Assembly: GCF_020906275.1 (NCBI RefSeq)
Contig: NZ_CP086727.1
Span: 3,038,001 to 3,102,000, forward strand
DNA from: Parasphingorhabdus litoris DSM 22379
GTDB lineage: Bacteria > Pseudomonadota > Alphaproteobacteria > Sphingomonadales > Sphingomonadaceae
Length of the DNA: 64,000 nucleotides
Direction: 5' to 3'
Shown: in pieces, positions 19,173 to 36,211 of the stretch
Numbering within the stretch: the stretch's first letter is position 1
Layout of the letters: the number at the start of each line of letters is the position of its first letter
Position numbers and translations under genes: made by a program
Notes under the pieces: model-generated
What the model saw: the letters and a program-made list of their open reading frames with translations, nothing else
Database searches by the model: none
Told to the model about the DNA's origin: nothing

Positions 19173-19742
19173 ATGTCTGAAGCAGAGCGAAACAGGAAAC
19201 AACAATCCCCGAAACAGACCGAGAGGCCGCACAATCCGCGTGCAGAGCATAAGGCGGCCAAACAGGCTGTCTTTCTGGAGCAGCTGGCAATCACGTCAAG
19301 TATCAAGCAATCGGCGAAGGTGGCTGGCATTCCCAATTCCACTTTATATCTGTGGCAACAAAATGATCCCGATTTTGCCGCTGCCTGGTTGAAGGCGCTG
19401 GCAGAGGGATATGCGCTGCTGGAAATGGAAATGCTGGAGCGCGCCCGGCAAGGCGTGGAGCGCAAGATTTTCTATCATGGCAAGCATGTCGAGACAGTGC
19501 GCGACTATGACCACAGAATGGCGCTGCAACTGCTGCGCTTGCACAAGGAAACTGTGGCAATGGTCCGTGCGGCACAGGCAGAGGCGGCCGCAGAACCGGA
19601 AACCGTGCACGACACGCTGGATGAAAAACTGAAGAAGATCAACGTGCGGTTGCGCGCTTTTCAGGCGGAAAAACGGCGTAAGAAGCTGGCCGGAAAAAAG
19701 CCCAATCACGGCGAAAGGAATGGTGCCGTGCATGGAGCATGA
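19173..19742 (+). CDS. GTA gp1-like terminase small subunit
   Basis: About 189 residues from ATG 19173, which has GGGAGGA eight bases upstream. The N-terminus is highly charged, then a helix-turn-helix-like block TSSIKQSAKVAGIPNSTLYLW (the DNA-recognition domain expected of TerS), a helical oligomerisation region (LKALAEGYALLEMEMLERAR), the DYDHRMALQLLRLHKE block and a basic tail. It should bind DNA and dock the packaging motor. An earlier GTG at 19062 is rejected because it would lie only about 12 bases after the predicted transcription start. First gene of the cluster; its 3' end overlaps TerL. Confidence 0.8.
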   Translation: MSEAERNRKQQSPKQTERPHNPRAEHKAAKQAVFLEQLAITSSIKQSAKVAGIPNSTLYLWQQNDPDFAAAWLKALAEGYALLEMEMLERARQGVERKIFYHGKHVETVRDYDHRMALQLLRLHKETVAMVRAAQAEAAAEPETVHDTLDEKLKKINVRLRAFQAEKRRKKLAGKKPNHGERNGAVHGA

Positions 19743-21066
19743 TGATCGTGATGTAATCACCGCGCAACAGATTAACCGGCTGGATGACAAATCTCGCGCG
19801 TTCTTTCTGGACGCATTGGGAGCGCACCATCGCCTTGAATATGAAGCGAGCTGGCACAAATGGGCGCGCAAGGAGCAATTGGCGCCTGCCGGTGACTGGA
19901 CGGTGTGGATGATCATGGCCGGCAGAGGCTTTGGCAAAACCAGGGCCGGCGCCGAATGGGTCCGTGAAATTGCTGAGGCCGATGGCAGCGCGCGCTTCGC
20001 ACTGATCGGGGCCAATTTTGCTGAAGCGCGGATGGTGATGGTCGAAGGAGAAAGCGGCCTGCTGTCAATTGCGCCTGCGAAGACCCGGCCGCAATGGGAG
20101 CCGTCGCTGAAACGCCTGCGCTGGCCGGGCGGAGCGGAAGCCTATCTCTATTCAGCCGCAGAACCGGAAGGGCTGCGCGGGCCGCAACATAGCCATAGCT
20201 GGTGCGACGAAATCGCCAAATGGCCGAACAATAGCGGGCAAGCGCTGGCGGCGTGGGACAATCTGAAAATGGGATTGCGGCTTGGCCAAGCGCCGAAAAT
20301 TACCGCCACGACAACGCCCAGGCCAGTGCCGCTGGTGCGATCACTGGTCGGCGATCGCGGCACGGTCATCACGCGCGGCAGCACCAAGGATAATGTCGCG
20401 AACCTGCCCGGCGCGTTCATCAAGGTCATGGAAGCGGACTATGGTGGAACCCGGCTGGGACGACAGGAACTGGACGGGGAGCTGATTGAGGAGCTGGAAG
20501 GCGCTTTGTGGACACGGGCGATGCTGGAGGATTCGAGGGTTGATCCTAACGAAGCCAGCCAGACCGAACGCATTGTCATCGGTGTTGATCCACCCGCTTC
20601 CCAGAACGGAGACGCCTGCGGAATCATCGTCGCTGGCTTGCGCAGGGATAAAAAAGCCGTGATCCTGGCCGATGATAGCGTTGCCAAAGCCAGCCCGGAA
20701 ACATGGGCACGAGCGGTTGCAAAAGCGGCGCGCAAATGGAGCGCCGACCGGGTGATTGCCGAGGCCAATCAGGGCGGCGCGATGGTGAAGTCGGTCCTGC
20801 AAGCGGCGGACATTTCTTTGCCCGTTCGGTTGGTACATGCCTCGCGCGGCAAGGTCGCCCGGGCAGAACCGGTCGCGGCGCTGTATGAAGCGGGACGGGT
20901 GCTGCATGCGGGCGCTTTTCCGCGCCTTGAGGACGAGCTGTGCGGGCTGCTAATCGGTGGCGGTTATGAAGGCCCGGGGCGATCACCGGATCGCGCCGAT
21001 GCGCTGGTATATGCGCTGACGGAATTAATGCTCGGCAAGAGGCGCGAACCGCGCGTGCGGGTTTAG
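19720..21066 (+). CDS. GTA gp2-like terminase large subunit
   Basis: A 448-residue DNA packaging ATPase-nuclease. Walker A is MAGRGFGKTRAGAEW (about residues 65-79), Walker B with the coupling acid is SHSWCDEIAKWP, motif III lies in KITATTTPRP, and the nuclease half shows VIGVDPPAS (first acidic residue) and the terminal PDRADALVYALTEL (last acidic residue), the family pattern. GTA terminases package about 4-5 kb of random host DNA rather than the phage genome. The start may be ATG 19720 or ATG 19732, which has AAGGA further upstream; both lie inside TerS. Confidence 0.93.
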   Translation: MVPCMEHDDRDVITAQQINRLDDKSRAFFLDALGAHHRLEYEASWHKWARKEQLAPAGDWTVWMIMAGRGFGKTRAGAEWVREIAEADGSARFALIGANFAEARMVMVEGESGLLSIAPAKTRPQWEPSLKRLRWPGGAEAYLYSAAEPEGLRGPQHSHSWCDEIAKWPNNSGQALAAWDNLKMGLRLGQAPKITATTTPRPVPLVRSLVGDRGTVITRGSTKDNVANLPGAFIKVMEADYGGTRLGRQELDGELIEELEGALWTRAMLEDSRVDPNEASQTERIVIGVDPPASQNGDACGIIVAGLRRDKKAVILADDSVAKASPETWARAVAKAARKWSADRVIAEANQGGAMVKSVLQAADISLPVRLVHASRGKVARAEPVAALYEAGRVLHAGAFPRLEDELCGLLIGGGYEGPGRSPDRADALVYALTELMLGKRREPRVRV

Positions 21067-21083
21067 GGTGAAGTTAGAGTTTT

Positions 21084-21160
21084 GTGCTCCGCACTTGATG
21101 CGGAGCCCAGGGTAGACGGGCGTGACAGCCATCCCAGGCTCCGCATCAAGTGCGGAGCAC
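21084..21160. repeat. REPIN-like doublet 1 (24-bp perfect inverted arms)
   Basis: Two 24-base arms, 21084-21107 and 21137-21160, are exact reverse complements, and each arm is itself a hairpin: CTCCGCA, a five-base loop, TGCGGAG. Hairpin units in inverted pairs are the layout of REP doublets (REPINs). It fills most of the 124-base gap between TerL and portal. The RNA could fold into one long stem or two short ones and might attenuate or stabilise the transcript; no T-run follows it. Confidence 0.85.
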
Positions 21161-21190
21161 GGCAGCGCGGAAATATAACAAGGAAATAAG

Positions 21191-22327
21191 ATGACATTTT
21201 GGCAAAACCTAACCCTCGCCTTCAAGGGCGGTGGGCAGCAAACACGGCCGCCTTTGGGGCGCAGCTATATCGGCACCTATGGCGGTGCTTCCTTTACCGG
21301 CGAGGCGCCTTTTTCTTATGAGGGCCAGGTCCGCGAGGCTTATGTCAGCAACGCGGTTGCGCAGCGCGCTGTGCGGATTGTCGCGGAAGGCGTCGGCGGG
21401 GCGCCGCTTGCACCGATGGATGACGCGCTCACATCGCTCATCAACGCCGCCAGCGCCGGCCAGTCCCTGCTCGAAACCATCGCTGCGCATCTGCTCTTGC
21501 ACGGCAATGCCTATGTGCAGCTCATATGCGGTGCCGAGGATCAGCCTGCCGAGCTTTTCGCGCTGCGGCCCGACCGGATCACGATTGAATCCGATACCAA
21601 AGGCTGGCCGGTTGCTTATGTCTATCGTGCGGGCGAACATCAGACCCGGATAGCGGCACAGGATGAAAGGGAGCGCCCCGCGATCATCCATATCAAAGCC
21701 TTTCACCCGACCGATGACCACTATGGCCTCGGCTGTCTCGGCGCGGCGGCCAAGGCGGTGGCGGTGCATAATTCGGCGGCGCAGTGGAACAAGGCGCTGC
21801 TCGACAATGCCGCGCGTCCGTCTGGCGCTTTGGTATTTGATCCCGGGCCGGATGGGTCGGTCTTGTCGGCGGACCAGTTTGATCGGTTGAAGGCCGAGAT
21901 GGAGGCAAGCTTTGCCGGTTCCGGCAATGCCGGACGGCCGATGCTGCTCGAAGGCGGCCTGAAGTGGCAATCGATGAGCATGACGCCGGCGGACATGGAT
22001 TTCGTTGCGTTGAAAGCCGCCGCTGCCCGGGAGATCGCGCTGGCTTTCGGCGTCCCGCCAATGCTGCTCGGGCTGCCGGGGGATAATAGCTATGCGAACT
22101 ATAAAGAAGCCAATCGCGCGCTGTGGCGGCTTACCATATTGCCGCTGGCGGGCAAGATTTTGGACGGACTGGCTGGCGGTCTGCGCCTGTGGTGGCCCGA
22201 TGCAAAACTTACCATCGATCGCGATCAGATACCCGCGCTGTCCGAAGATCGGGAACGGCTGTGGAACCAAGTGAGCGGGGCGGATTTTCTGTCGCCTGAG
22301 GAGAAGCGGGAAATTTTGGGATTATAG
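21191..22327 (+). CDS. GTA gp3-like HK97-family portal protein
   Basis: A 378-residue portal, the dodecameric ring through which DNA enters the capsid. Recognised by VREAYVSNAVAQRAVRIVAEGVG, HLLLHGNAYVQLI, LFALRPDRITIE, the FHPTDDHYGLG block and ALAFGVPPMLLGLPGDNSYANYKEANRALWR, the classic HK97-family core, followed by LSEDRERLWNQV and FLSPEEKREILGL. Length is close to the usual GTA portal of about 390 residues. Start ATG 21191 follows AAGGAAATAAG. Flanked on both sides by repeats. Confidence 0.93.
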   Translation: MTFWQNLTLAFKGGGQQTRPPLGRSYIGTYGGASFTGEAPFSYEGQVREAYVSNAVAQRAVRIVAEGVGGAPLAPMDDALTSLINAASAGQSLLETIAAHLLLHGNAYVQLICGAEDQPAELFALRPDRITIESDTKGWPVAYVYRAGEHQTRIAAQDERERPAIIHIKAFHPTDDHYGLGCLGAAAKAVAVHNSAAQWNKALLDNAARPSGALVFDPGPDGSVLSADQFDRLKAEMEASFAGSGNAGRPMLLEGGLKWQSMSMTPADMDFVALKAAAAREIALAFGVPPMLLGLPGDNSYANYKEANRALWRLTILPLAGKILDGLAGGLRLWWPDAKLTIDRDQIPALSEDRERLWNQVSGADFLSPEEKREILGL

Positions 22328-22329
22328 TT

Positions 22330-22510
22330 CTCTCCCCTTGAGGGAGAGAAAAGACTTGGCTTGGCAGCTTGCTGCCTAGCAAGTCTTAGAGAGGGGGCAG
22401 CGACAATCGCAGACCTTTATCTGTGCCGCCCACCCCTCTCCAAGTTTCGCTAGCGCCCCTGGACAAGCCCAGAGCCGCAAGCTTCACTTTCCTCTCCCTC
22501 AAGGGGAGAG
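22330..22510. repeat. REPIN-like doublet 2 (19-bp perfect inverted ends, internal hairpin)
   Basis: A 181-base unit bounded by 19-base perfect inverted repeats at 22330-22348 and 22492-22510; each end is itself palindromic and identical to the solo copy at 8525-8543. A further strong stem-loop with AAGACTT/AAGTCTT arms and a nested GGCAGC-TT-GCTGCC lies at 22351-22387. It starts three bases after the portal stop. Together with element A it occupies almost all of the 499-base gap 22328-22826, in which I see no gene. Confidence 0.8.
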
Positions 22511-22576
22511 GAGTTGTTTATTTAACCGCGTCTTTATTTAACCTCAGGCGCCGGGCGCGGGGAGGAGTCTTTATTG

Positions 22577-22806
22577 AACCTCAAGCGCCGGGCGGGCACA
22601 TCCGTGCCCTTGGCTATCGCGCCATACGGCGCGGCGGCCGGTCGGCCTTGCCTCGCTGTGCTCGGACGATGCTCTTTGACGTTTCGTAGAAGGTCGCGCT
22701 GATCCGAAGCGAAGCGGAGGCAAGCGCGACCGCGCGCCAAATAATATAGGCTCGCTTTTGCGAGGAAAGCCAAGCGGGCGGAGGCCCGCGCCCGGCGCCT
22801 GAGGTC
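22577..22806. repeat. Inverted-repeat element, copy A
   Basis: About 230 bases with inverted ends: ACCTCAAGCGCCGGGCG on the left, CGCCCGGCGCCTGAGGT on the right. Inside, a left half (CTTGGCTATCGCGCCA..., GGCCTTGCCTCGCT) and a right half (GAGGCAAGCGCGACCGCGCG, then GCCAAG) are imperfect inverted copies around a variable centre. A duplicated left end (22530-22566) stands directly before it. The ribosome site of the next gene starts only a few bases after the right end. Copies B, C and D are at 23528, 26213 and 27960. Short frames within it are not genes. Confidence 0.85.
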
Positions 22807-22826
22807 AGAAAAAGGAAACCCAAATT

Positions 22827-23135
22827 ATGCAAAACGAAGAAATGCTCGCCCGCCTCGTGGCGCAGGCGGAAGGCGATGGGGCGGATTTGGTCACGCTTCG
22901 CGCGATAGTGGAGGAAGCGACCGATAGCGGCGCGGCACGCGTGCTCGACCGGCTGGGTCTCGCCGATCACAAGGCACAGGATGATCTCGACGAGTTGCGC
23001 GAACTCTTGCGTGCCTGGCGTGATGCCAAGGCGAGCGCGTGGAAAGCGGCGATAACCTGGGTCATTCGCGGCGCGCTGGCGCTGCTGTTGATCGGCATCG
23101 CTATGCGCTTCGGTTTCGGGAACTTGGTTACATGA
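22827..23135 (+). CDS. Small DUF6127-like GTA protein with C-terminal membrane segment
   Basis: A 102-residue protein between portal and protease, where GTA clusters often carry a small gene (position of orfg3.5). An acidic helical region (MLARLVAQAEGDGADLVTLRAIVEEATDSGAARVLDRLGL) is followed by a heptad-like stretch DDLDELRELLRAWRDAK and one hydrophobic helix near the C-terminus (WVIRGALALLLIGIAM). I associate it with DUF6127 from memory and position; its role is unknown, perhaps head assembly at the membrane. Its stop overlaps the protease ATG by four bases (ATGA). Confidence 0.7.
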   Translation: MQNEEMLARLVAQAEGDGADLVTLRAIVEEATDSGAARVLDRLGLADHKAQDDLDELRELLRAWRDAKASAWKAAITWVIRGALALLLIGIAMRFGFGNLVT

Positions 23136-23578
23136 GCGTGATCCGCTTTGCTGGCTATGCCGCGATCTTCAACCGCATCGACAAGGGCGGTGACATTATC
23201 CGGCCCGGTGCCTTCGGGACACTGGCCAAAGGACAGTCGCTGCCGCTGCTTTGGCAACACAGCCCGGAAAAACGTATCGGTACAATTACTTATGCCCACG
23301 AAGACGAGCGCGGCCTCAGGGTGATCGGCAATTTGTTGACCACGACAAGAGCGGGACGCGAAGCAGCAGCGATGCTTACCGATGGTGCGGTAAAGGGGCT
23401 GAGCTTTGGCTATCGCGTGAAGCAGGCGATCGGACAGCGGCCCAGAGAGCTATGCAATCTCGACGTCGCGGAAATATCGCTCGTAACCTCTCCGATGCAA
23501 CCACTGGCTCGGGTGCATTGTTTATTGGACCTCAAGCGCCGGGCGCGGGCCTCCGCCCGCTTGGCTATCCTCGCATAA
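23132..23578 (+). CDS. GTA gp4-like HK97 family prohead protease, C-terminus replaced by repeat element
   Basis: About 148 residues from ATG 23132 (ATGA overlap with the preceding gene). It cleaves the capsid scaffold region during head maturation. The family core is clear: FAGYAAIFNRIDKGGDIIRPGAF, LPLLWQHSPEKRIGTI (catalytic His), GAVKGLSFGYRV (catalytic Ser) and NLDVAEISLVTSPM. From residue 133 (Asp at base 23528) the last 16 residues DLKRRARASARLAILA are encoded by element B, so the native end was lost or replaced. All catalytic segments precede the junction, so activity may be kept. Confidence 0.88.
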   Translation: MSVIRFAGYAAIFNRIDKGGDIIRPGAFGTLAKGQSLPLLWQHSPEKRIGTITYAHEDERGLRVIGNLLTTTRAGREAAAMLTDGAVKGLSFGYRVKQAIGQRPRELCNLDVAEISLVTSPMQPLARVHCLLDLKRRARASARLAILA

Positions 23579-23743
23579 GCTCGGGCGCGCGGTCGCGCTT
23601 GCCTCGCTGCGCTCGGAACAGCGCGACCTTCTCGGCAACGTCCAAGAGCATCGTCCGAGCGCAGCGAGGCAAGGCCGACCGGCCGCCGCGCCTTATTGGC
23701 GCGTAGCCAAGGCGACGGATGTCGCCGCCCGGCGTCTGAGGTC
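23528..23743. repeat. Inverted-repeat element, copy B (overlaps protease 3' end)
   Basis: A 216-base copy with GACCTCAAGCGCCGGGCG on the left and CGCCCGGCGTCTGAGGTC on the right. Its interior is flipped compared with A: the half containing CTCGCATAAGCTCG lies on the left, and the half with GGCCGACCGGCCGCCGCGCC on the right. The left end lies in frame within the protease gene and provides its stop at 23578. The rest fills most of the gap to the antisense gene at 23760. Confidence 0.85.
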
Positions 23744-23759
23744 AAACAAAAAATACCTA

Positions 23760-24875
23760 CTAACGCGGCGGCAGCGGTTTGACCCCTTCCGAAGCCGGCA
23801 CACCATTGGCCATATTGGCATCCAGTCCGGCAATAATCGCCGCACTGCAGCCGAACTCTTTCAGCTCAGCGGCGATACGCGGATCGCTTTGGGTCGGAGA
23901 GACAACCTGCGGAAAGTAAAATTCATTTTGTTCGTCTTGCTGGCACAAATTGCGGCGCGACAGGCTGTTGAAAGTCTTTAACTCGGCCAGTACGCCATCA
24001 TAATCTTTCCGGCCTGCCAATATGTAGATTTTGAGAATCCGGATCGGATAATAGACCAAATCTTGATGGCGACTGTGGCGCTCTGTTTTGTCTAGGAACA
24101 TATTGATGGCGGTGAGCGCGCGATCCTCGTCTTTCGCGATAATCGCGTCATAGGCAATCAGTTCGGCATGTTCGACATTGGATATCATGTCGATCGGCTC
24201 GCGGTCGGCAAGCGCGGTTGCAGCGGTGAAATTGGCCAGCGCTTCATCACGGCGTCCCAATTGGAGGAGATATTCGCTTTTGTCTTTATAGAGATAGCCG
24301 CGCAGGAATGTCGGATTGTTCATCAGGGTGCGTCCCTGCAGCGCAATATAGTCGCTATGGGCAGCGATGGCGGCCTCATCATCGTCAAATGCTTTCAGCA
24401 TATTGATCAACAACGGATAGCCCATTTGCGCGACTTGGCTTTGCATCGGCCAGCGGCCGTCCGCATGTTGTGAATGAAGCTGTTTGGCCAAAGCCAGCGC
24501 GCGGTTTTTGGTGGCTATGGCATCGGGCGCCTGACGTTCGTGCTTGGCAATGGCCGACCTGCTGGCACCGCGCAGCCGGATCAGCGTCTTATAGGCTTGC
24601 AGGACCGGCCAGCAGTTTTTGGCAACAAATTCGATCGACCGCTTGTCGCGGCTGGCGCAGTCTGAAAGGTCGCTGCGCTTCTCGAGTGGAATGTCATAGC
24701 TGAGCATCTTGTTCGGCGGACGGCGCGGTCGCGGAATGACCACAGTCGCATTGGGCGACGGTGTCGCCGCTTGTTGCGGGGCCGGCTTGTCGGTTTGTGC
24801 GGCCAAGGGAGCCGCTGGAAAAATTGCGATCAGGAAGAGAGCAGCCAGCGCTGCCAAGCGGTTCAGATAATGCAT
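23760..24875 (-). CDS. Exported TPR-like protein of unknown function, antisense inside the GTA cluster
   Basis: About 371 residues from ATG 24875; a longer reading to 24935 adds a non-conserved leader. Signal peptide: MHYLNRLAALAALFLIAIF then a cut after APLAA, followed by a Q/P-rich linker with RPRRPPNK. The mature part is alpha-helical with TPR-like helix pairs (AAHSDYIALQGRTLMNNPTFLRGYLYKDKS, SEYLLQLGRRDEALANFTAA, HAELIAYDAII). No enzyme motif is recognised. It lies between protease and capsid on the opposite strand, which is not part of the canonical GTA order, so it is probably an insertion or cargo gene. Periplasmic location is inferred. Confidence 0.72.
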   Translation of the reverse strand: MHYLNRLAALAALFLIAIFPAAPLAAQTDKPAPQQAATPSPNATVVIPRPRRPPNKMLSYDIPLEKRSDLSDCASRDKRSIEFVAKNCWPVLQAYKTLIRLRGASRSAIAKHERQAPDAIATKNRALALAKQLHSQHADGRWPMQSQVAQMGYPLLINMLKAFDDDEAAIAAHSDYIALQGRTLMNNPTFLRGYLYKDKSEYLLQLGRRDEALANFTAATALADREPIDMISNVEHAELIAYDAIIAKDEDRALTAINMFLDKTERHSRHQDLVYYPIRILKIYILAGRKDYDGVLAELKTFNSLSRRNLCQQDEQNEFYFPQVVSPTQSDPRIAAELKEFGCSAAIIAGLDANMANGVPASEGVKPLPPR

Positions 24876-24942
24876 GGGCCCATGGCTATAGCCGCAGCCG
24901 ATGCTTGTCGACCCCAATATGCAGAACAAACACACACTAGCC

Positions 24943-24965
24943 GCCTGATTTCAGGCCACTTTTTA
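24943..24965 (+). terminator. Possible weak intrinsic terminator or hairpin before the capsid gene
   Basis: GCCTGA-TT-TCAGGC (24943-24956) is a perfect six-pair inverted repeat followed by CACTTTTTA. On the plus strand it resembles a short intrinsic terminator, 36 bases before the capsid start; if active it would cut the cluster in two and require a separate capsid promoter. It could equally be an operator in the divergent gap between the antisense gene and the capsid gene. Confidence 0.3.
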
Positions 24966-25000
24966 CCCCAGAGAATTTTCACTCACTAGAAAGGAATAGC

Positions 25001-26170
25001 ATGGATATTTCCAATACCCCCCTCGAAACCAAAGCCGATACGCTGGAGGATAGTTTTGACACGGTGCTGATGGCCGAAGATATCGCGGAACTGCGCAGTG
25101 ATGTTGATGGACTCAAGACCCAGATGGCCGACATCTCGAAAGCATCGGCGCGGCCCGTTTTGGCCGGAGATGATGAAGGCACAAAAGGCATGGCGTCTTC
25201 CCTTGCTGCGCGCAATTTCACATCCAAATATCTTCGTCGCGGCGATCATAGCGGTGTTGAGCTGAAAAGCTTTTCCGGCGCATCCGGTCCCGAAGGCGGC
25301 TTTGCGGTGCCACAAGAAATTGATGCGCTGATCGGCCGGACGCTGAAGGACATCTCGCCCATCCGTTCGCTTGCGACCGTGGTGCAGACCGGCAGCGCCG
25401 GCTATCGCAAGCTGGTCACCAATGGCGGCACGCCGTCGGGCTGGGTTAGCGAAACCGCCGGACGGCCGGAAACCGACACCCCCAATTTCAACGAAATCGC
25501 CCCGCCGACCGGAGAGCTTTATGCCAATCCGGCGGCGTCTCAGGCGATGCTTGATGACGCGGCCTTTGATGTCGAGGCTTGGCTCGCCGATGAAATTGCG
25601 CGGGAATTTGCGCAGGCCGAGGGAGCCGCCTTTGTCGGCGGTTCCGGGGTCAACCAGCCGCGCGGTTTTCTGAACGCGCCGGTCACCGATGAAGCGGATG
25701 ATGTGCGCAGCTTCGGGTCGCTGCAATATGTGCCATCGGGCGCGGTTGGCGGTTTTGCCGGAGCGGATGGTGAAGATGCGCTCGTTGATCTGGTCCACGC
25801 GCTGAAACCCGCTTACCGGCAGGGCGCAAGCTTTGTGATGAACAGCGCCACATTGGCGCAGATCCGCAAGTTCAAGACCGCGGATGGCGCGTTCCTGTGG
25901 CAGGCATCGCTGGCATCGGGTCAGCCGGATATGCTGCTCGGCTATCCCGTGATTGAAGCGGAGGACATGCCGGATATCGCGGCCGACAGCCTGGCGATCG
26001 CCTTCGGCAATTTCCGCGCCGGTTACCTGATCGCCGAACGCAGTGCGACCAGCATCTTGCGCGATCCGTTCACCAACAAGCCGTTTGTGCATTTCTACGC
26101 CACCAAGCGCGTTGGCGGTCAGGTGATGAACAGCGAAGCGATCAAGCTGATGCGCTTCTCTGTGAACTAG
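25001..26170 (+). CDS. GTA gp5-like major capsid protein (HK97 fold)
   Basis: A 389-residue capsid precursor. Residues 1-70 are acidic and helical (the delta scaffold region, ending near SLAARNFTSKYLRRG), where the gp4 protease should cut. The HK97 core follows: GPEGGFAVPQEIDALIGRTLKDISPIRSLATVV, GWVSETAGRPETDTPNFNEI, ELYANPAASQAMLDDAAFDVEAWLADEI, FVGGSGVNQPRGFL, FVMNSATLAQIRKFKTADG and the terminal YATKRVGGQVMNSEAIKLMRF. Length matches GTA capsids. Start ATG 25001 follows GAAAGGA. No neighbour on the same strand for 1.4 kb upstream, because the antisense gene intervenes. Confidence 0.95.
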   Translation: MDISNTPLETKADTLEDSFDTVLMAEDIAELRSDVDGLKTQMADISKASARPVLAGDDEGTKGMASSLAARNFTSKYLRRGDHSGVELKSFSGASGPEGGFAVPQEIDALIGRTLKDISPIRSLATVVQTGSAGYRKLVTNGGTPSGWVSETAGRPETDTPNFNEIAPPTGELYANPAASQAMLDDAAFDVEAWLADEIAREFAQAEGAAFVGGSGVNQPRGFLNAPVTDEADDVRSFGSLQYVPSGAVGGFAGADGEDALVDLVHALKPAYRQGASFVMNSATLAQIRKFKTADGAFLWQASLASGQPDMLLGYPVIEAEDMPDIAADSLAIAFGNFRAGYLIAERSATSILRDPFTNKPFVHFYATKRVGGQVMNSEAIKLMRFSVN

Positions 26171-26212
26171 GTTTTTATTTTTTGAACCTCAGGCGCCGGG
26201 CGGGTTTTTTTG

Positions 26213-26428: not shown

Positions 26429-26476
26429 AATAAACAAAACCTCTCCCCCACCCCCCATTGAAAGGATGCCCCACAA

Positions 26477-28165: not shown

Positions 28166-28249
28166 CAATAAAGACTCCTCCCAACCCAGCTCTCAAAGTC
28201 CAACAAACATTACCACCCCCTCAACCCCAACCCAATAAAGGAACCAACT

Positions 28250-28964: not shown

Positions 28965-29329
28965 TGGCAATCCCGTATCCCTGCGAAGGCAGGGATCCAT
29001 CTCCTGATCCATCGGCGATCAGCAACGGCATTGGTGAGCGCCAGTCTCCGAGTAAGAGCACCCCCTCTCCGGTGCCGTCAGGTGCAATGGCAAGAGATGG
29101 GCTCCTGCCTGCGCAGGAGCACTGCGGCTTCCGCACCTCAGCCGCCCGCCTCGCTGGACTGATACCCGCCACTATCGGCTGGACGCCCGATCAGTTCTGG
29201 ACCGCAACGCCCGCTGAACTTGCCGCGATCCTTGTCGCGCTATCGCCAGCGTCGCCAGCATCGGCAAGCACACAACCGCTGGACAAAATCCAACTCCAAA
29301 AACTGAAAGAAACCCTCGATCATGGATGA
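28964..29329 (+). CDS. GTA gp10.1-like tail assembly chaperone with REPIN-derived N-terminus
   Basis: A 121-residue protein whose last 60 or so residues carry the conserved core SAARLAGLIPATIGWTPDQF and ATPAELAAILVAL, typical of the small GTA tail chaperone (usually about 60-70 residues). The first 52 residues, rich in P, S and G, are encoded by the REPIN-like doublet at 28977-29120. The insertion length kept the frame and the upstream TAATG coupling, so a longer protein is expected. Internal ATGs at 29086 and 29095 (MARDGLLP) might give shorter forms. Overlaps the tape measure gene by eight bases. Confidence 0.78.
   Translation: MAIPYPCEGRDPSPDPSAISNGIGERQSPSKSTPSPVPSGAMARDGLLPAQEHCGFRTSAARLAGLIPATIGWTPDQFWTATPAELAAILVALSPASPASASTQPLDKIQLQKLKETLDHG
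28977..29120. repeat. REPIN-like doublet 3, inside a coding sequence
   Basis: Two related hairpins in inverted order: ATCCCTGC-GAAG-GCAGGGAT at 28977-28996 and GCTCCTGC-CTGC-GCAGGAGC at 29101-29120. Read outward, both share the tail GAGATGG before the stem (29094-29100, and the complement at 28997-29003), so they are two copies of one REP unit facing each other around about 90 bases. The doublet lies within the open frame of the tail chaperone gene and is translated without a stop. Confidence 0.82.
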
Positions 29330-29900
29330 AGAAATTGAACGTCTGGTCATTGCTGTCCAGGCCGATACCAACGGATTTGCCAGAGATGTCGCGGACATGA
29401 AGTCTCAGCTGGATGGGCCGCTTGCCAGCGGCATGGAGCGTGCCGGTTCGGCTCTGGAAACCAGTCTGAGCCGAGCGATCCGTCGCGGGTCGCTGGATTT
29501 CCAGGATCTGAAAGGCGTCGCGCTGTCGGTCATGGCGGATATTGCGAATGCGGCGGTCAATAGCGGCATCGGCAGCTTGCTTGGAGGCGGTGGCGGCAAG
29601 GGTTTGCTTGGTCTGGGAACTTCGATACTCGGCGCTGCTCTGGGCGCACCGGGGCGAGCAACTGGCGGTCCTGTTGCCGGCGGCCGTGCCTATATGGTTG
29701 GCGAACAGGGACCCGAATTGTTTGTGCCAACCGCAGCGGGACGGATTGAACCCCATGGCGCGAGCGCCGCTGCACCAAATGTCCGTTTGACCATCAATAT
29801 CTCGGACAATGGCCAGAGCAGCGCCCCCGACCAGATGCGGCGATCCAGCCGGCAAGTGGCCCGCGCGGTGCGCAGTGCGCTGGCCTATCGGGAGGGCTGA
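29322..29900 (+). CDS. GTA gp11-like short tape measure protein
   Basis: A 192-residue tail protein. N-terminal DEEIERLVIAVQADTNGFARDVADMKSQLDG, then a helical part and a glycine-rich region (GIGSLLGGGGGKGLLGLG), and the end ATGGPVAGGRAYMVGEQGPELFVPTAAGRIEP typical of tape measure proteins. Tape length sets tail length; 192 residues fits the very short tail of GTA particles (the Rhodobacter homologue is about 220 residues). Start ATG 29322 overlaps the chaperone gene. Followed after four bases by the long gp12 homologue. Confidence 0.88.
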   Translation: MDEEIERLVIAVQADTNGFARDVADMKSQLDGPLASGMERAGSALETSLSRAIRRGSLDFQDLKGVALSVMADIANAAVNSGIGSLLGGGGGKGLLGLGTSILGAALGAPGRATGGPVAGGRAYMVGEQGPELFVPTAAGRIEPHGASAAAPNVRLTINISDNGQSSAPDQMRRSSRQVARAVRSALAYREG

Positions 29901-29904
29901 ACCC

Positions 29905-32262
29905 ATGGGTTTCTGGCTGGCGAACAAACGCACCTCACAGCAGACAAATTTTATTCAGCGGTTCGATCCGCGCTTCTGGACCGTCAATTTTCCGCGCCCG
30001 ATGATGGCATCCGTAGTGACCACCGCGCCGGATGCGCTGCGTGTGGATGCGGTTTTCTATAATTCGGATGATCTGGCGGGGCTGATCTGGGACAGTGAAG
30101 ACACGCTCGATCATCCGCTGCTCGCTTATGAGACAAGCCGCGATTATGCGCGGCTCAGCCTGCAGTTTCACTGGCGCTCTTCGGGGATCATGCCGCTGGA
30201 TCAAGTCAACGGTCCGACCCTGACGATTGAGGGTCGGGATGCGGCGGGCAATCCAAAATCCTGGTTTGTCCGGCTGTGGAACTATGCCAGCGGCACGCCG
30301 ACCGACGCGACCATCAATCTGGAATTTTCCAGTCTGGACGGCGGTTTTCTGCTGCCGGGAGAAGCGGACCCGGTCCACCCGCAGGATATCGACCGGATGT
30401 TTATTTCAATCATACCGCCGGACTATGATGGCGCGGGCACGCGCTATGACACGCCCCAGATCGGTTGGGTCGAGATGAGCAAGATCAATGCCGATGGCGG
30501 CGGCGCGATTCTGGAAATTGGCGATATCTTGGTGCCGGAAAACGGCCTGTCCATGGCCACAGGCTATGACGACAGTTTCAACCAGACGCCAGAACGCCTG
30601 CTGCGGTCGATCCGCGCGCTCGGCTATCGCGGCGCGATCAACCATTATGTCGGGATGAGCCACTATTTCCGGCTCGAGACCAATGGCGCAGGGCTCTATG
30701 TCAGCCTGTCCGTGCCGCGGCCCGGAGAGGAATTTGCGGCGATCAATCAGCCTTGCACCGCATGGCACCGCGATTTCGTCACGCGAGCGGAGGCGATGGA
30801 TTTCACGGTCATATTCTCGTTATCCTACGAGCTGTTCGACGCCCATTGCTGGAACAATTGGAAACAGCGGGCAGAAAATGGACAACCGGCGCTCACTGGC
30901 TGGGTGCCACCATCAACCTTGCTGTCGCCCGCACGCCGGCCAGCGATGCGTTATTTGCAGGCCGTTGCCAGGGCCTTCACGGCCATTGCCCGCGATGCTG
31001 GTGCGGCAATCCAGTTTCAGGTTGGCGAACCATGGTGGTGGATCATGCCGGAGGATGGCCGTATCTGCCTCTATGACGCAGCGGCTAAAGCGGCCTTTGG
31101 TGACGCGCTGGTCAGCATATCGGACATACGCGGGCCGAAAACGGCGGCGCAAAAGGCGATGCTGGATATGGCTGGCGCGATGCTGGCGCAGTCGACCGCT
31201 GATCTCGTCGCTGCGGTCAAGAATGAAGCACTGGGTGCGCCGGTTGAAACGTTCCTGCTCGCCTATCTACCGACCATATTGGATGAGGCGGCACCGGAAG
31301 CAAAGCGCGCCAATCTGCCAGTGGGCTGGGCCAGTCCCGCTTTCGATATCCTGCAGCTGGAGGATTATGACTGGGTGATTGCCGGCGATCAGTCCGCCAC
31401 CCAGCGTGGTATCGATCTGGCGACCGAGCGGCTCAGTTATCCGATGGATCGGCAGCAATATTTTTCCGGCTTTGTGCTGCAAGCCGAAGACAGTTTCATC
31501 TGGGCCAATATGGTGGATGCCGTTGCCGCCGCACGAGCCCGCGGCACGCCCGATATCTTCATCTGGGCGCTGCCACAGGTCGCCCGAGACGGCTTTACCT
31601 ATTTTCAGGAACAGGAGGACGATATGAACGCCTTTGACGATGTGCAATTCCCGATTGCAATCGGTAGCGGTGCGACGGTTTCGCCGCGCTTCTCAACCGA
31701 TATTGTCACAACCCTTTCCGGTCATGAAAAACGCAATAGCGATTGGGCAGACGCGCGGCTGGAATTTGACGCCGGGCCGGGTGTGCGGTCGGAAGAGGAA
31801 TTGCGGACATTGATCGCTTTTTTCCGCGGGCGGCGCGGCGCGGCGAAGACGTTCCGGTTTACCGATCCCTATGACCATAGCAGCCGTGATATGGTCGATC
31901 CGCCAACCCCAACCGATCAATTTATTGGGATTGGCGATGGCAATCAGAGCCGCTTTCAACTGGTCAAAAATTACGGCGAAGCAGGGGACGAGACAGAAAC
32001 GCAGCAGCGGCTGATCACGCGGCCGGTGCCCTCGTCCATACGCGTTTCTGTTAACAGCACACTGGTCAGCAACTGGTCCTTAGGCCCGCTCGGACAGGTC
32101 GTTTTTGATAATCCGCCACCAGTGGATGCTGAGATCAAGGCTGGTTTCCTGTTCGATGTTCCAGTGCGCTTTGCCGACGATCAGTTAAACGTCAGTGTTC
32201 ATAGCTTTTTGGCAGGAGAAATTCCCGAGGTCCGCCTTATCGAAGTGCGGGAAACGCCATGA
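29905..32262 (+). CDS. Enlarged GTA gp12 homologue: N-terminal beta and TIM-barrel-like region fused to DUF2460
   Basis: About 785 residues from ATG 29905, though gp12 proteins are usually near 210. Residues 574-785 are the canonical part: VQFPIAIGSGATVSPRFSTDIVTTLSGHEKRN, LEFDAGPGVRSEEELRTLIAFFRGRRG and FRFTDPYDHSS (DUF2460, distal tail). Residues 1-573 are extra: a beta-rich region (about 1-215) and then a segment with glycosidase-barrel character (YRGAINHYVGMSHYF, DFTVIFSLSYELFD, AIQFQVGEPWWWIM, FDILQLEDYDWVIAG), resembling the TIM-barrel parts seen in other tail proteins. An AGGAGG and ATG at 31613-31626 would start the 212-residue gp12 on its own. Role in sheath or receptor binding is inference. 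Confidence 0.82.
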   Translation: MGFWLANKRTSQQTNFIQRFDPRFWTVNFPRPMMASVVTTAPDALRVDAVFYNSDDLAGLIWDSEDTLDHPLLAYETSRDYARLSLQFHWRSSGIMPLDQVNGPTLTIEGRDAAGNPKSWFVRLWNYASGTPTDATINLEFSSLDGGFLLPGEADPVHPQDIDRMFISIIPPDYDGAGTRYDTPQIGWVEMSKINADGGGAILEIGDILVPENGLSMATGYDDSFNQTPERLLRSIRALGYRGAINHYVGMSHYFRLETNGAGLYVSLSVPRPGEEFAAINQPCTAWHRDFVTRAEAMDFTVIFSLSYELFDAHCWNNWKQRAENGQPALTGWVPPSTLLSPARRPAMRYLQAVARAFTAIARDAGAAIQFQVGEPWWWIMPEDGRICLYDAAAKAAFGDALVSISDIRGPKTAAQKAMLDMAGAMLAQSTADLVAAVKNEALGAPVETFLLAYLPTILDEAAPEAKRANLPVGWASPAFDILQLEDYDWVIAGDQSATQRGIDLATERLSYPMDRQQYFSGFVLQAEDSFIWANMVDAVAAARARGTPDIFIWALPQVARDGFTYFQEQEDDMNAFDDVQFPIAIGSGATVSPRFSTDIVTTLSGHEKRNSDWADARLEFDAGPGVRSEEELRTLIAFFRGRRGAAKTFRFTDPYDHSSRDMVDPPTPTDQFIGIGDGNQSRFQLVKNYGEAGDETETQQRLITRPVPSSIRVSVNSTLVSNWSLGPLGQVVFDNPPPVDAEIKAGFLFDVPVRFADDQLNVSVHSFLAGEIPEVRLIEVRETP
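31613..31626 (+). promoter_or_regulatory. Internal Shine-Dalgarno and in-frame ATG for stand-alone gp12
   Basis: AGGAGG at 31613-31618, five bases, then ATG at 31624-31626, in frame with the long protein. A perfect Shine-Dalgarno at ideal distance is rare by chance within a coding sequence, and it stands exactly where the canonical gp12 begins (MNAFDDVQFPIAI). It therefore looks like the original start of gp12, kept after fusion to the upstream frame, or used to make a second, short product. Confidence 0.7.
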
Positions 32263-33077
32263 GCATCGCCTGGCTGGACCTCCCGCTGACCACCAGCTGC
32301 TATGCCTGGCGACTGGAGCGAGCGGACGGTGTCACATTGGGTTTCGTGTCACATGACCGTGACCTTATCATCGATAGCTTGCGCTACCGCGCCGCGCCGG
32401 GAATGGTGCCTTCGACCATCGCGCTATCCGACAGTCTGGAGATGGACAGCGTCGATATTGAAGGCGTGATGACAAGCGCAGCCATTTCCGAGGCCGACTT
32501 GATGTCCGGCCGCTGGAATGGAGCCATGTTGTCGATATCTTTCGTCAACTGGGAAAGTCCGACAGAGGACCCGCTCCATTTGATAAGCGGCGAATTTGGT
32601 GAGATCACGCGTTCCGGCGACGCTTTTCGTGTGGAAATGCTGGGCGGAACATCTTTTCTTGACGAGGCGATCGCGCCGCTGACCTCTCCCACATGCCGTG
32701 CGCGGCTAGGTGACCGGGCCTGCAAGGTCAGCCTGGCAAAGCATCAGGCTGAGATGAAAGTGACACAGATTGCTGACAGCTCCCTCGAATTTTCTGAATT
32801 GGGCGGACAGGCAGCCGATTACATCTTCGGCGAGCTGCGCTGGTTGAGCGGGCAAAATTGCGGCCTCAGCTTTGCGATTATCGGAGGCGAAGGTGATACG
32901 ATCCAGCTGGCTGAACAACCGGCGCAACCCGTGTCGATCGGAGATCGGGCGCTTTTAACCGCTGGCTGCGACAAGAATTTCTCAACCTGTCGGGACCGAT
33001 TCCAAAACAGCATAAATTTTCGTGGTGAGCCGCATCTACCCGGCAATGACCTGCTCACCCGCTATCCAGGAGCATGA
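32259..33077 (+). CDS. GTA gp13-like DUF2163 baseplate hub protein
   Basis: A 272-residue protein: TTSCYAWRLERADGVTLGFVSHDRDLII at the start and the C-terminal domain with CRARLGDRACKVSL and the block LTAGCDKNFSTCRDRFQNSI followed by NFRGEPHLPGND. The four cysteines of this last region are known to hold an iron-sulfur cluster in the GTA hub and related lambda gpL-like tail-tip proteins. It begins with an ATGA overlap on gp12 and is followed three bases later by the peptidase gene. Confidence 0.88.
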   Translation: MSIAWLDLPLTTSCYAWRLERADGVTLGFVSHDRDLIIDSLRYRAAPGMVPSTIALSDSLEMDSVDIEGVMTSAAISEADLMSGRWNGAMLSISFVNWESPTEDPLHLISGEFGEITRSGDAFRVEMLGGTSFLDEAIAPLTSPTCRARLGDRACKVSLAKHQAEMKVTQIADSSLEFSELGGQAADYIFGELRWLSGQNCGLSFAIIGGEGDTIQLAEQPAQPVSIGDRALLTAGCDKNFSTCRDRFQNSINFRGEPHLPGNDLLTRYPGA

Positions 33078-33080
33078 TCA

Positions 33081-33512
33081 ATGGCATCAAATGATTCTGA
33101 AACCGACCATTCCGGCATGATTGCTGAAATGGCATTGCAACTTTGTGGCAGCGATTTTCGCTTGCATGGGCGCAGTGCGGATCACGGTCTCGACTGTATC
33201 GGGCTTGCGGCACAATGTCTGGCTGCTGCTGGTATCCAGTGTGATATACCCACTGGCTATTCTATCCGTAGCGGGTCGGTGGAGCAGATCGAAGAGGCCA
33301 TGTCATTGGCTGGATTTACCGCTTTGTCGCCTGGTAACCCAGAGCAAGAGGGCGACATCATACTGGTGCGTCCCAGTCCGATTCAATGGCATCTGATGGT
33401 CAAGACCGAAGATGGTTTTGTCCATGCCCATGCCGGGCTTGGTCAGGTGGTTTTTACGCCAGGTGCAACGCAATGGCCGATAGAAAAGATCTTCAGATTG
33501 ACGGAGCGCTAG
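33081..33512 (+). CDS. GTA gp14-like NlpC/P60 cell-wall peptidase
   Basis: A 143-residue peptidase of the tail tip that opens peptidoglycan during DNA delivery. The catalytic Cys lies in DHGLDCIGLAAQCLAAAG and the His in GFVHAHAGLGQVVF, with the strand EGDIILVRPSPIQWHLMVKT between them, the NlpC/P60 arrangement. Length fits GTA gp14. Immediately followed by the tail-tip gene with no gap (TAG then ATG). Confidence 0.88.
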   Translation: MASNDSETDHSGMIAEMALQLCGSDFRLHGRSADHGLDCIGLAAQCLAAAGIQCDIPTGYSIRSGSVEQIEEAMSLAGFTALSPGNPEQEGDIILVRPSPIQWHLMVKTEDGFVHAHAGLGQVVFTPGATQWPIEKIFRLTER

Positions 33513-35714
33513 ATGGCAACTTTGGTTTTGACCGCCGTGGGTACAGCGTTGGGCGGGCCTATTGGTGGTGCGCTGGGCGGGCTGCTGGGGCAGCAATTTG
33601 ACCAGAACATTCTCTTCAAGCCCAAAAGTGTAGATGGGCCGCGCCTACAGGAACTGGCGGTGCAGACATCCAGCTATGGATCACAGATCCCCCGTATCTT
33701 CGGTAAGATGCGGGTGGCGGGTTCCGTCGTGTGGGCCACCGACCTGAAGGAAACAAGAGAGACAAGTGGCGGCGGCAAGCGTCGCCCGCGCAGCACGACA
33801 TACAGCTATTCCGCAAGTCTAGCAGTTGCACTGTCCAGTCGGTCCATCAAAGCGATTGGACGGATCTGGGCGGACGGGAAAATTTTGCGCGGTAAAGCCG
33901 GTGATTTCAAAACCGAAACAGGTTTTCGCTTTTATAATGGCCATGAGGACCAACGCGTCGATAGTCTTATCGCCAGTGTTGAAACTATGGCCGGTACACC
34001 GGCCTATCGCGGACTCGCGCTAGCGGTTTTTGAGGACATGGATCTAACCGACTATGGCAACCGCATCCCGTCGCTGACTTTTGAAATCATTGCGGATGAC
34101 GGGACGGTAAGCCTTGGGATCATTCTCGATGATATTTCGGGGGAAAGGATATCGGCATCGGCAGATCAGGCGCTTGACGGATTTTCCGCTGCTGGACCGA
34201 ACCGCCGTGAGGTTTTGAACTTGATCAGCGATAATTATTCCCTGTCTTTTCAAACCAAAAGATCGGGAATGATAGCGTCAAAGTCACGCGAACTGGATCC
34301 CGATCACACAATATTGGCGGTGAAAGACACGCTATTGTCGGTGCATAATGATCACGCTGTAGATCCTGCCGAATCGCAGATAGTGCCAGAAACGAAATTG
34401 CCTCGGCAATTTGCCTTGCGCTATTATGATCCAGAGCGAGATTATCAATCCGGCCTCCAAAATGCATTCCGGCCCGGGCAAAGCCGGGTCGTGCGCAATC
34501 GCGACTTTCCAGCGGCGATGTCGGCCGGGCAGGCAAAGCGGCTTGCGCACGCGAAACTATGGTCGCTTTATCAGGAGCGTGCCACTGCACAGGTGCACAT
34601 AGCAAGAACAGTACAACCGGTATCACCAGGGGCTTTTGTCCGGATAGATGATAGCGATGACATTTGGTCGGTACGCAATGTGGAACTGAACCGTTCGAGC
34701 ATGGCTCTAGGTCTATCGAAAGCGACCAGCATTTTGGCGGTTGCAGACAGGCCCACAGACAATGGCCGTCCGATCAGGGAACAGGATGCGCTGGCTGGGC
34801 CCACACGTCTAGCGCTTGTCGATCTGCCATTTGCTATCGAAGCGCCAACTCAACCATCCGACCGCGCGAAACTTTATGCCGCTGCGGCGGGAAATGTGGG
34901 ATGGCGTAATGCGCAGCTATATGCTTCGAGCACCAATGGCAGCGCGACGGATTATATCGGACAGGTTGCTGCACCAGCGATCATAGGTACGGCTGAGGGG
35001 GCCTTGGGATCGAGCGGTCACCATATAATCGATCGGAAGAATCGCTTGGTCGTGCAATTGCACAACCGAACTATGATGCTCAATGATGCAAATAGCGAGC
35101 AATTGTGGAACGGCAATAATATGGCGGCTGTCGGTGAGGAGCTGATCCAGTTTGGCTTTGCCGAACCAATTGGCAATGGCCGCTATCTGCTGTCCCATTT
35201 ATTGAGAGGCTTGGGCGGTACAGAGCATGAAATGGATAGGCATGCTACCGATGAGGATTTTGTCCTTTTGGATGGCCCTGGTTTGACCAAGATTGATGAT
35301 CGGCATTTTACGCCATTTCAACCCTTTGAGTTGACTGTGATCGGGCGAGGAGACGCGGCGCCAGTGCTGCAATCGATCGACCTGCCGGGACGCGCCCTAA
35401 AGCCATGGTCTCCGGTACACCCACGGCATCGTTTCACGGTGAATGGAGACTTGGAAATCGACTGGACCCGGCGGTCGCGCGCCGGATTGCTATGGCCCGA
35501 TCATATCGAAACACCATTGGCGGAAGAAACGGAACGTTACCGCGTGTCAGTCAACCCCAGCCTCGTGCACGAACCAAGGCAACCATCAATCACCATCTCG
35601 GCCGATGTCGTTCAAGAATATCGGGAATCGGGGGTGAGTATCTTGTCGCTCGAGATCCGGCAAATCGGCCGTCACAACATCTCGGAACCACTGTCTCTCG
35701 CCATTGCCATCTAG
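33513..35714 (+). CDS. GTA gp15-like tail-tip protein, short form without TIM-barrel segment
   Basis: A 733-residue tail protein. It starts with a glycine-zipper stretch (ALGGPIGGALGGLLGQQF) then LQELAVQTSSYGSQIPRIFGKMRVAGSVVWATDL, the gp15/megatron beginning, and later shows the Phage-tail_3-like central part (LRYYDPERDYQSGLQNAF, MSAGQAKRLAHAKLWSLYQERAT) and the distal domain AQLYASSTNGSATDYIG...LLRGLGGTEHEM. The Rhodobacter homologue is about 1300 residues and has a TIM-barrel domain near its N-terminal third that I do not see here. It probably forms the receptor-contacting fibre tip. Confidence 0.86.
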   Translation: MATLVLTAVGTALGGPIGGALGGLLGQQFDQNILFKPKSVDGPRLQELAVQTSSYGSQIPRIFGKMRVAGSVVWATDLKETRETSGGGKRRPRSTTYSYSASLAVALSSRSIKAIGRIWADGKILRGKAGDFKTETGFRFYNGHEDQRVDSLIASVETMAGTPAYRGLALAVFEDMDLTDYGNRIPSLTFEIIADDGTVSLGIILDDISGERISASADQALDGFSAAGPNRREVLNLISDNYSLSFQTKRSGMIASKSRELDPDHTILAVKDTLLSVHNDHAVDPAESQIVPETKLPRQFALRYYDPERDYQSGLQNAFRPGQSRVVRNRDFPAAMSAGQAKRLAHAKLWSLYQERATAQVHIARTVQPVSPGAFVRIDDSDDIWSVRNVELNRSSMALGLSKATSILAVADRPTDNGRPIREQDALAGPTRLALVDLPFAIEAPTQPSDRAKLYAAAAGNVGWRNAQLYASSTNGSATDYIGQVAAPAIIGTAEGALGSSGHHIIDRKNRLVVQLHNRTMMLNDANSEQLWNGNNMAAVGEELIQFGFAEPIGNGRYLLSHLLRGLGGTEHEMDRHATDEDFVLLDGPGLTKIDDRHFTPFQPFELTVIGRGDAAPVLQSIDLPGRALKPWSPVHPRHRFTVNGDLEIDWTRRSRAGLLWPDHIETPLAEETERYRVSVNPSLVHEPRQPSITISADVVQEYRESGVSILSLEIRQIGRHNISEPLSLAIAI

Positions 35715-35758
35715 GCGCAATCACCCCCGTCCGAATATGTCAAATCAAAGGAACGCAA

Positions 35759-36211
35759 ATGACAATATTTGAAACCCCCCGCTTTTCATTGCCCCTATTG
35801 GCTGCCGGTCAGGCGCATAAGGAGCTATTTCACAATGAGGCACTGCTTTTACTTGATTTTCTGGTTCATCCGGTCGTTCAGGCCATTGTCGATGATCCGC
35901 AGATATTGGTACCGGAGGCTGGACAATGTTGGCTGGTCGGACCTTCCGCCGTTGCAGAATGGAGCGGCAAAGACAAGCAGATTGCCGGATGGTCATCCGG
36001 GGGATGGCATTTCATTAAACCACAGGAAACAATGAAGATTATGGTATTGGAGGCTCAGCAATTAGCGATTTACAAAAATGATGCCTGGCAGTTTGTGGAT
36101 GGCGTGAATGCACCAACTGGCGGTGAAAAAATTGATCAGGAAGCGCGATCCGCGATTGATTCGATTTTGGAAATTCTAAGAATAGTAGCGATTTTACCTC
36201 GAATACCCTGA
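35759..36211 (+). CDS. DUF2793 protein at the end of the GTA cluster
   Basis: About 150 residues from ATG 35759 behind AAAGGA. FSLPLLAAGQAHKELFHNEALLLLDFLVHPVV and PEAGQCWLVGPSAVAEWSGKDKQIAGWSSGGWHFI are the DUF2793 core found at tail ends of GTA clusters and phage tail fibres. It probably is a head- or tail-fibre accessory used in cell contact (inference). Frame is open upstream inside gp15, but the ribosome site and homology start here. Last gene before OmpA; a 183-base gap follows. Confidence 0.82.
   Translation: MTIFETPRFSLPLLAAGQAHKELFHNEALLLLDFLVHPVVQAIVDDPQILVPEAGQCWLVGPSAVAEWSGKDKQIAGWSSGGWHFIKPQETMKIMVLEAQQLAIYKNDAWQFVDGVNAPTGGEKIDQEARSAIDSILEILRIVAILPRIP

Follow-up and report, generated by a model that had tools for sequence, protein, structure and literature searches.

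Why should the operon of a gene transfer agent (GTA) be interrupted at spacer after spacer by hairpin-forming repeats? The question is raised by a 64,000-nucleotide stretch, hereafter the window, of the single-contig, 3.61-Mb genome of Parasphingorhabdus litoris DSM 22379. Its GTA head-tail cluster carries seven hairpin repeats: four copies of a composite palindrome, which we call E, and one doublet from each of three other families, Rgct, Rctc and Rccc (Table 1), the families being judged unrelated to each other by eye, from their motifs. The preliminary description of the window had offered two explanations: either the cluster tolerates insertions because its expression is conditional, or the elements do something there, such as RNA processing or attenuation. 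Our analysis confirmed that hairpin repeats crowd the spacers of this GTA, and the pattern extends across the genus. Occupation, enrichment, family exchange and folding showed that the GTA spacers are kept filled with strong hairpins from several sequence-unlike repeat families, which suggests that a hairpin in these gaps is useful.

The fairest single-genome figure for the enrichment is that of E itself. Four of the 12 E elements in the P. litoris genome are located in the GTA, which makes up 0.48% of the genome, against 0.06 expected (P = 2.5e-7). The other three families place one locus each in the GTA (Table 1), together three of 38 loci against 0.18 expected (P = 8e-4). With the loci of all families merged by hand, the densest 17.3-kb interval of the genome was the GTA, holding seven of 50 loci, or six of 44 sites; when 44 sites are placed randomly, the densest interval reaches five at the 99.9% point. 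Other dense spots, at 1895 kb and at 3106 kb, hold four loci per 17 kb. An equal density in ordinary intergenic gaps, which the preliminary description had named as evidence against its own claim, did not emerge from the genome-wide map, where the remainder of the genome showed a far lower density, and its statement that the rest of the window is nearly free of these families was borne out: a solo Rctc arm was the only further copy found with up to two mismatches (three for Rccc). All seven repeats are real, but the description of two needs correction. The E copy between the protease gene and an antisense gene overlaps the protease open reading frame (ORF) and encodes about the last 15 residues and the stop, following a conserved 'ARVH'; the protease of the closest relative, G031, likewise terminates inside E. 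The Rccc doublet is read in frame within an N-terminal extension of gp10.1 that locus L065 has as well and L060 lacks.

Among the 23 genus genomes with a capsid match (G013 and G016, in which no capsid gene was found, were left out), 41 of 154 E clusters fall within 17.3 kb around the capsid gene against 0.75 expected, a count inflated by shared descent because the relatives are not independent. Clusters were merged at 400 bp, by which two long elements of the P. litoris genome were split (14 clusters for 12 elements). At least one E cluster was found in the GTA of 18 of these 23 genomes. For Rccc, nine of 66 loci lie in the GTA against 0.33 expected, in four genomes chosen for having Rccc in their GTA. 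Six of the 64 loci outside the genus have E-type arms in their GTA: capsid-gp6 carries them in L103, L104, L105, L116 and L138, gp11-gp12 additionally in L104 and L105, and protease-capsid and gp6-gp8 in L124. Genome-wide counts of E arms ranged from 0 to 11 in twelve genomes, six of which had been picked for the presence of E in their GTA.

Occupation of the spacers is matched by their predicted folding. We folded spacers of 25-400 nt and compared them with shuffles, skipping loci without a match for a flanking gene. In the 22 genus GTAs, z scores of -3 or below were obtained for 17/19 TerL-portal, 17/18 portal-DUF6127, 19/21 capsid-gp6 and 17/20 gp8-gp9 spacers. These four boundaries sum to 70/78, compared with 5/33 control tandem gaps (Fisher P = 3e-14), with 2/16 from the non-GTA parts of the window and 3/17 from E-free gaps at other loci; the gene ends of the control gaps came from a simple ORF caller. 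At the same four boundaries, seven genus spacers and 136 spacers of other genera were outside 25-400 nt and hence remained unfolded. The protease-capsid spacers of the genus reached the threshold in 4/13 cases, and the gp10-gp11 interval, which contains gp10.1 and stands outside the sums, in 3/20 genus and 7/58 other loci. In other genera, capsid-gp6 stood out with 28/40, compared with 25/93 at the other four boundaries (P = 5.5e-6), and a strong hairpin directly 3' of the GTA capsid gene is found across genera of the Sphingomonadales (L104, L105, L112, L139 and others). Within the genus, a capsid-gp6 hairpin, whatever its origin, is present in all 22 GTAs read; each E-free spacer read shows one, weaker in L061 (z -2.5) and L063 (z -2.2).

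What, then, is E? Sequence, covariation of its terminal hairpin and predicted folding showed a composite palindrome of about 190-240 bp with two non-identical arms bearing small hairpins and a 16-bp outer stem. We gathered 74 complete copies from the fetched loci, and the 67 that could be parsed are 190-238 bp long. Both sides end in CCTCA[AG]GCGCCGGGCG, 16 bp in inverted orientation, so that E has terminal inverted repeats, and the interior carries the boxes TTGGCT and TTGCC between small hairpins. The arms have different alleles at stem 2 and at stem 3 in 66/67 copies, where chance would give the same allele on both arms in 31.0 (stem 2) and 28.2 (stem 3) copies. In the predicted fold the outer ends close and small hairpins branch off inside (z -11.5 and -8.6). 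The terminal hairpin stays paired via compensatory changes: across 44 distinct versions, taken from this genus and others of the order, its stem sequence varies freely while pairing is kept, with 92.0% of cells paired compared with 59.7% after shuffling, and a covariation score of 0.742 compared with 0.176 for shuffled versions (sd 0.027) and at most 0.155 for slid structures. These versions were picked by the boxes and a GGA loop, and pairing was no selection criterion. The loop reads GGA in 43/46 variants under a looser loop pattern, a constancy that is partly by construction because the search pattern demanded a G-rich loop (GGA in one search). CsrA as a reader of this loop was rejected, as PF02599 had a match in 0/31 genomes, the P. 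litoris genome included. An extra outer end often stands beside an E element, as if older E copies had been replaced. At 189.9, 1650.1 and 2321.2 kb of the P. litoris genome, Rctc arms or doublets are located within or between E ends, which looks like insertion of one repeat family into another.

When the spacer contents were mapped onto a tree of concatenated GTA proteins, the same spacers of close relatives held different copies and families; identical spacers in a close relative, which the preliminary description had also named as evidence against itself, were not encountered. Across the genus, TerL-portal is filled by E, Rgct, Rccc, combinations of these, an unclassified hairpin (L068) or nothing. 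Portal-DUF6127 holds mainly E; the exceptions are L065, L070 and L072 with Rccc, L071 with an unclassified hairpin and L063, where it is empty. The gp8-gp9 spacer holds E, Rccc, Rgct plus Rccc, Rgtc or little. At capsid-gp6, most genus members have a native double hairpin, and E is found instead, with the native hairpin lost, in the window, G031, L064 (where an apparent native hairpin is a chance match inside E) and L065 (whose E copy has no right end). E probably took the place of the native hairpin there. These four are near each other on the tree, and because support between them is weak (0.48, 0.63), one replacement with a reversal and several replacements are indistinguishable.

Such exchanges could also arise if a transposase or a single-stranded DNA mechanism targeted hairpins or element ends already in place; occupied spacers would then attract further elements, and old ones would be lost and leave end scars. 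The protease-antisense spacer fits this idea, as the window and G031 share the same junction with different interiors in opposite orientation. A simple inversion of the interior was rejected; by eye, the reverse complement of one centre does not match the other, for which reason replacement by another E copy is likelier. Partial outer ends adjoining complete elements, E standing where the native capsid hairpin once was and the Rctc copies within E are likewise consistent with site-directed insertion. However, gene conversion between copies accounts equally for swapped interiors, a Y1 transposase (PF01797, the domain of REP-associated tyrosine transposases, RAYTs) had no match in the P. litoris genome and in 17/31 others searched, and no clear target-site duplication was recognised by eye at the junctions read in filled and empty spacers. 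We consider site-directed insertion unlikely.

Does selection on the GTA bear on why the hairpins are there? Between the window and G031, the GTA genes have ratios of nonsynonymous to synonymous substitution rates (dN/dS) of 0.05-0.29, and between the window and L064 of 0.04-0.42, with dS often about 1 or above 1. Judged from these ratios, the GTA genes are under purifying selection, and decay of the GTA as a cause of tolerance was rejected. The suggestion that insertions are tolerated because GTA expression is conditional is weakened by the dN/dS values of the first comparison and by the enrichment of several families. A function of the hairpins is favoured because of this purifying selection, the multi-family enrichment, the substitution of one hairpin for another and the presence of a capsid-gp6 hairpin throughout the order.

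Our best reading as a whole, held tentatively and at a little less than even confidence, is that the repeats are exchangeable intercistronic hairpins that act on mRNA ends like repetitive extragenic palindromes (REPs). On a polycistronic GTA mRNA, they would form 3'-end structures behind each translationally coupled block, like those of REPs and bacterial interspersed mosaic elements (BIMEs). They may protect the segments 5' of them against 3' decay and reduce translation or read-through, and a single transcript would then behave as several units of different abundance. The need for a hairpin would be greatest behind the capsid gene, in keeping with a capsid-gp6 spacer structured across the order, where E would have displaced the native hairpin in some lineages. 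Passages of PMC12306157 describe effects of REPs on mRNA decay, and on translation when they lie within 15 nt of stops; those of PMC9765227 state that the genes of RcGTA (the GTA of Rhodobacter capsulatus) are transcribed from one promoter and that the capsid protein is the most numerous. A REP-like role at 3' ends is taken as likeliest because REP effects are known near stops and 3' ends, RcGTA has one promoter and its capsid protein is most abundant. The broader proposition, that GTA operons of the order are segmented by exchangeable hairpins, with selection for a strong hairpin behind each block, above all the capsid gene, and the mobile family of each lineage supplying it, is possible but doubtful.

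Like REPs, E is located between genes and near gene 3' ends. In the P. litoris genome, all eight non-GTA sites start 2-37 nt past a stop, in tandem or convergent settings by simple ORF calls, and the GTA sites also follow stops, one of them overlapping the protease stop. The non-GTA sites include the Na/Ala symporter-VTT, subtilase-dxs-MerC and aminotransferase-msrA loci. A mark that would tie the GTA to GTA genes elsewhere was rejected, as the other E sites of this genome flank ordinary or Pfam-less genes. Several observations, however, weigh against a hairpin function in the GTA. E recurs at the same ordinary loci in several relatives, as judged from ORF sizes and, for aminotransferase-msrA in L160 and msrA in L159, from Pfam, so long persistence is not peculiar to the GTA, whereas the number of sites per operon is. 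At L142, L149, L164 and L171, the genes flanking E look divergent in simple ORF calls, where a 3'-end role makes no sense. E orientation in the GTA is mixed without preference (16 AB, 11 BA). Arms with a fully paired stem 1 are about equally common in GTA (55/62) and other copies (73/86), unparsed arms included, and the constraint on E is therefore not GTA-specific; a difference in upkeep between GTA and non-GTA E copies was sought and none was found. Short, empty spacers also occur, at TerL-portal in L061, L069 and L073, at portal-DUF6127 in L063, and at gp8-gp9 in L068, L069 and L073. In five of the 23 genomes (G006, G001, G004, G014 and G022) the GTA lacks an exact E end, and G012 has one of 13 E copies there, its densest E interval (4/13) being elsewhere, starting at 162.8 kb. 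Local groups of E also exist beyond the GTA, at 168.0/170.9 kb in the P. litoris genome and as three copies within about 4 kb in L163. To these adds the shared descent behind the genus count.

Many of these points are what neutral docking with local spread would produce, which is a close rival and, in our estimate, quite possibly correct, though its chance is also below even. Here, repeats land or are converted mostly after stops, persist where they cause little damage and reach neighbouring gaps by hopping or conversion, and the GTA, with its expression limited to few cells, offers founders a permissive site for spreading. The local groups of E, the outer end boxes duplicated beside elements, the location of elements at gaps between coupled blocks where insertion is tolerated, and GTA and non-GTA copies that are about equally intact and unoriented support it, and the empty spacers and apparently divergent sites fit as well. 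What neutral docking explains less easily is that three more families are co-enriched (3/38, and Rccc in the chosen genomes), each needing its own founder, that the GTA genes are under purifying selection, that families replace one another at the same spacer, and that a hairpin occupies capsid-gp6 in each of the 22 genus GTAs read.

The proposal in the preliminary description that the elements do something is favoured by hairpin-for-hairpin replacement, with capsid-gp6 foremost, but its attenuation part fares less well for E. None of the four window E copies has a U-run after the stem in gene direction; on the plus strand a T-rich flank precedes the left end and an A-rich one follows the right end. 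Intrinsic attenuation by E alone is thus unlikely from its sequence, and E as an intrinsic terminator was rejected with the T-rich flank on the wrong side in all four. A terminator scan found 23 sites against 17.8 expected (sd 4.1), those inside E being on the minus strand. The largest terminator-like site, 22489-22513 (+), consists of the right arm of the Rctc doublet and the T-rich stretch after it, making this doublet a possible attenuator at portal-DUF6127. Among the loci listed for other genera, several capsid-gp6 hairpins (for example in L104, L105 and L139) resemble intrinsic terminators with a U-run by eye. A known RNA family was rejected: Rfam gave 14 matches at E<=5 for window positions 17000-38000, all under the gathering score. 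A role at the DNA level would have gyrase or a nucleoid protein bind the repeats and relieve supercoiling during the burst of GTA transcription; such binding has been proposed for BIMEs. The lack of orientation preference and the composite palindromes at the ends of gene blocks would suit it, yet no result here points to a binding protein and sequence-unlike hairpins serve the same sites, so we regard it as very improbable.

Table 1. Repeats and other features of the GTA region, in window coordinates
Feature	Coordinates	Strand	Location	Remarks
REPIN-like doublet, family Rgct, GCTCCGCACTTGATGCGGAGC	21084..21160		TerL-portal spacer	8 loci in genome, 1 in GTA
REPIN-like doublet, family Rctc, CTCTCCCC / CTCTCCCCTTGAGGGAGAG	22330..22510		portal-DUF6127	19 loci in genome including solo arms, 1 in GTA
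Composite palindrome E, arms A then B	22579..22804		portal-DUF6127 spacer	extra outer end box 22542-22557
Composite palindrome E, arms B then A	23530..23741		protease-antisense spacer	gives protease ORF its last codons and stop
Composite palindrome E, arms A then B	26215..26427		capsid-gp6 spacer	extra outer end box 26187-26202
Composite palindrome E, arms A then B	27962..28163		gp8-gp9 spacer	directly 3' of gp8 stop
REPIN-like doublet, family Rccc, CCCTGCGAAGGCAGGG / CCCTGCGAAGGCAGGGATCCA	28980..29117		gp10.1 start	11 loci in genome, 1 in GTA
Solo arm, family Rctc	8525..8543	+		sole other copy found in window
GTA head-tail cluster: g1, TerL, portal, DUF6127, protease, capsid, gp6-gp15, DUF2793	19062..36211	+		Pfam and matches in relatives
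Antisense gene, 391 aa	23760..24935	-	between protease and capsid	no Pfam or NCBIfam match

The genes of the window cluster agree with the preliminary description, which had reported homologues of g1 to g15, open and in canonical order. Pfam recovered TerL, portal, DUF6127, protease, capsid, gp6, gp7, gp8 (Tail_completion_gp17) and gp9 and, further down, gp10, gp10.1 (TAC_6), gp12 (sheath/DUF2460), gp13, gp15 and DUF2793, all in order and open. For g1 and gp7.1 there were Pfam matches below cut-off only, and gp11 and gp14 had none, yet are matched in relatives. With the conserved head-tail set open and in canonical order, the cluster is, on gene content, an intact RcGTA-like head-tail operon. 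The antisense gene has homologues in the same position in L060, L061, L062, L064, L090 and G031 and at least 10 database matches including itself, the named ones being in Parasphingorhabdus cellanae, where it is annotated as a tetratricopeptide repeat protein, and Sphingorhabdus sp. EL138; it is possibly a passenger gene of the GTA. Two GTAs of relatives appear truncated: L065 (14949-17435) gave no match for gp13, gp14 and the greater part of gp15, and L078 (11221-13061) none for gp7 to gp15. In L075, L077, L079 and L080 (Sphingorhabdus and related), the capsid match is 1.3-2.3 kb from the gp6 match, and this long interval may contain an extra gene. Small groups of E surround a gene of 193-208 aa at L163 2308-5778 and L145 1761-2824; by size, it is the VTT gene beside the Na/Ala symporter, which in several relatives precedes the capsid gene by about 9-17 kb.

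GTAs need very different amounts of proteins from what in RcGTA is one transcript. If hairpins set this dosage, the genus is a natural experiment, in which the same spacers hold E, other families, native hairpins or nothing, and a clear case of repeat families substituting for one another at fixed operon positions. It bears on the question of functional recruitment versus mere tolerance of REP-like sequences. If the broader proposition of segmented operons is true, selfish palindromes would have been recruited, and then replaced by sequence-unlike others, as stoichiometry elements of a domesticated virus. In the open-licence PubMed Central (PMC) papers searched, we found neither element E nor the pattern of GTA hairpins, and no paper that mentions Parasphingorhabdus together with a gene transfer agent. 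Gene transfer agents and repetitive extragenic palindromic sequences are both mentioned in PMC6006769 and PMC3862640.

How do these repeats compare with known systems? With the REPs, REPINs (hairpin-forming REP doublets) and BIMEs of E. coli and Pseudomonas, they share being short, intergenic, multi-copy palindromes near gene 3' ends that are capable of forming RNA hairpins, and the doublets of the window resemble REPINs in consisting of two inverted copies at a fixed distance. E is different. REP and REPIN units are 20-40 bp with a GTAG or CGTC tag, whereas E is 190-238 bp, ends in CCTCA[AG]GC...GC[CT]TGAGG without such a tag seen there, and has two different arms of several hairpins; it is also of low copy number (12 in the genome), with a third of its copies in one operon. 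A RAYT-driven REPIN origin of E was rejected with no PF01797 match in the P. litoris genome; of the 32 genomes searched, among them this one, 14 have a match, and these matches may be other Y1 transposases. The Correia/NEMIS repeats and the rhizobial RIMEs are palindromic intergenic repeats resembling miniature inverted-repeat transposable elements (MITEs). E shares with such repeats the terminal inverted repeats, a length of about 100-250 bp, the intergenic location and hairpin formation, but no target duplication was recognised for it by eye and no parent transposase in a search limited to PF01797, and its heterodimeric arms have stems that vary by compensatory change around conserved boxes. 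In Rickettsia palindromic elements, a palindromic repeat is read in frame inside a protein. The in-frame repeats at the N terminus of gp10.1 and the C terminus of the protease are similar, although in-frame reading here is confined to gene ends and could be incidental. With the RcGTA-like GTAs of Alphaproteobacteria, the window cluster shares gene content and order from g1 to g15, and it differs by the antisense gene between protease and capsid. According to PMC9836097, GTA clusters in four orders are located far from repeats of more than 800 bp, whereas the window GTA is the densest spot of the short repeats described here; the published statement is to be qualified to this extent, as it was measured on repeats >800 bp.

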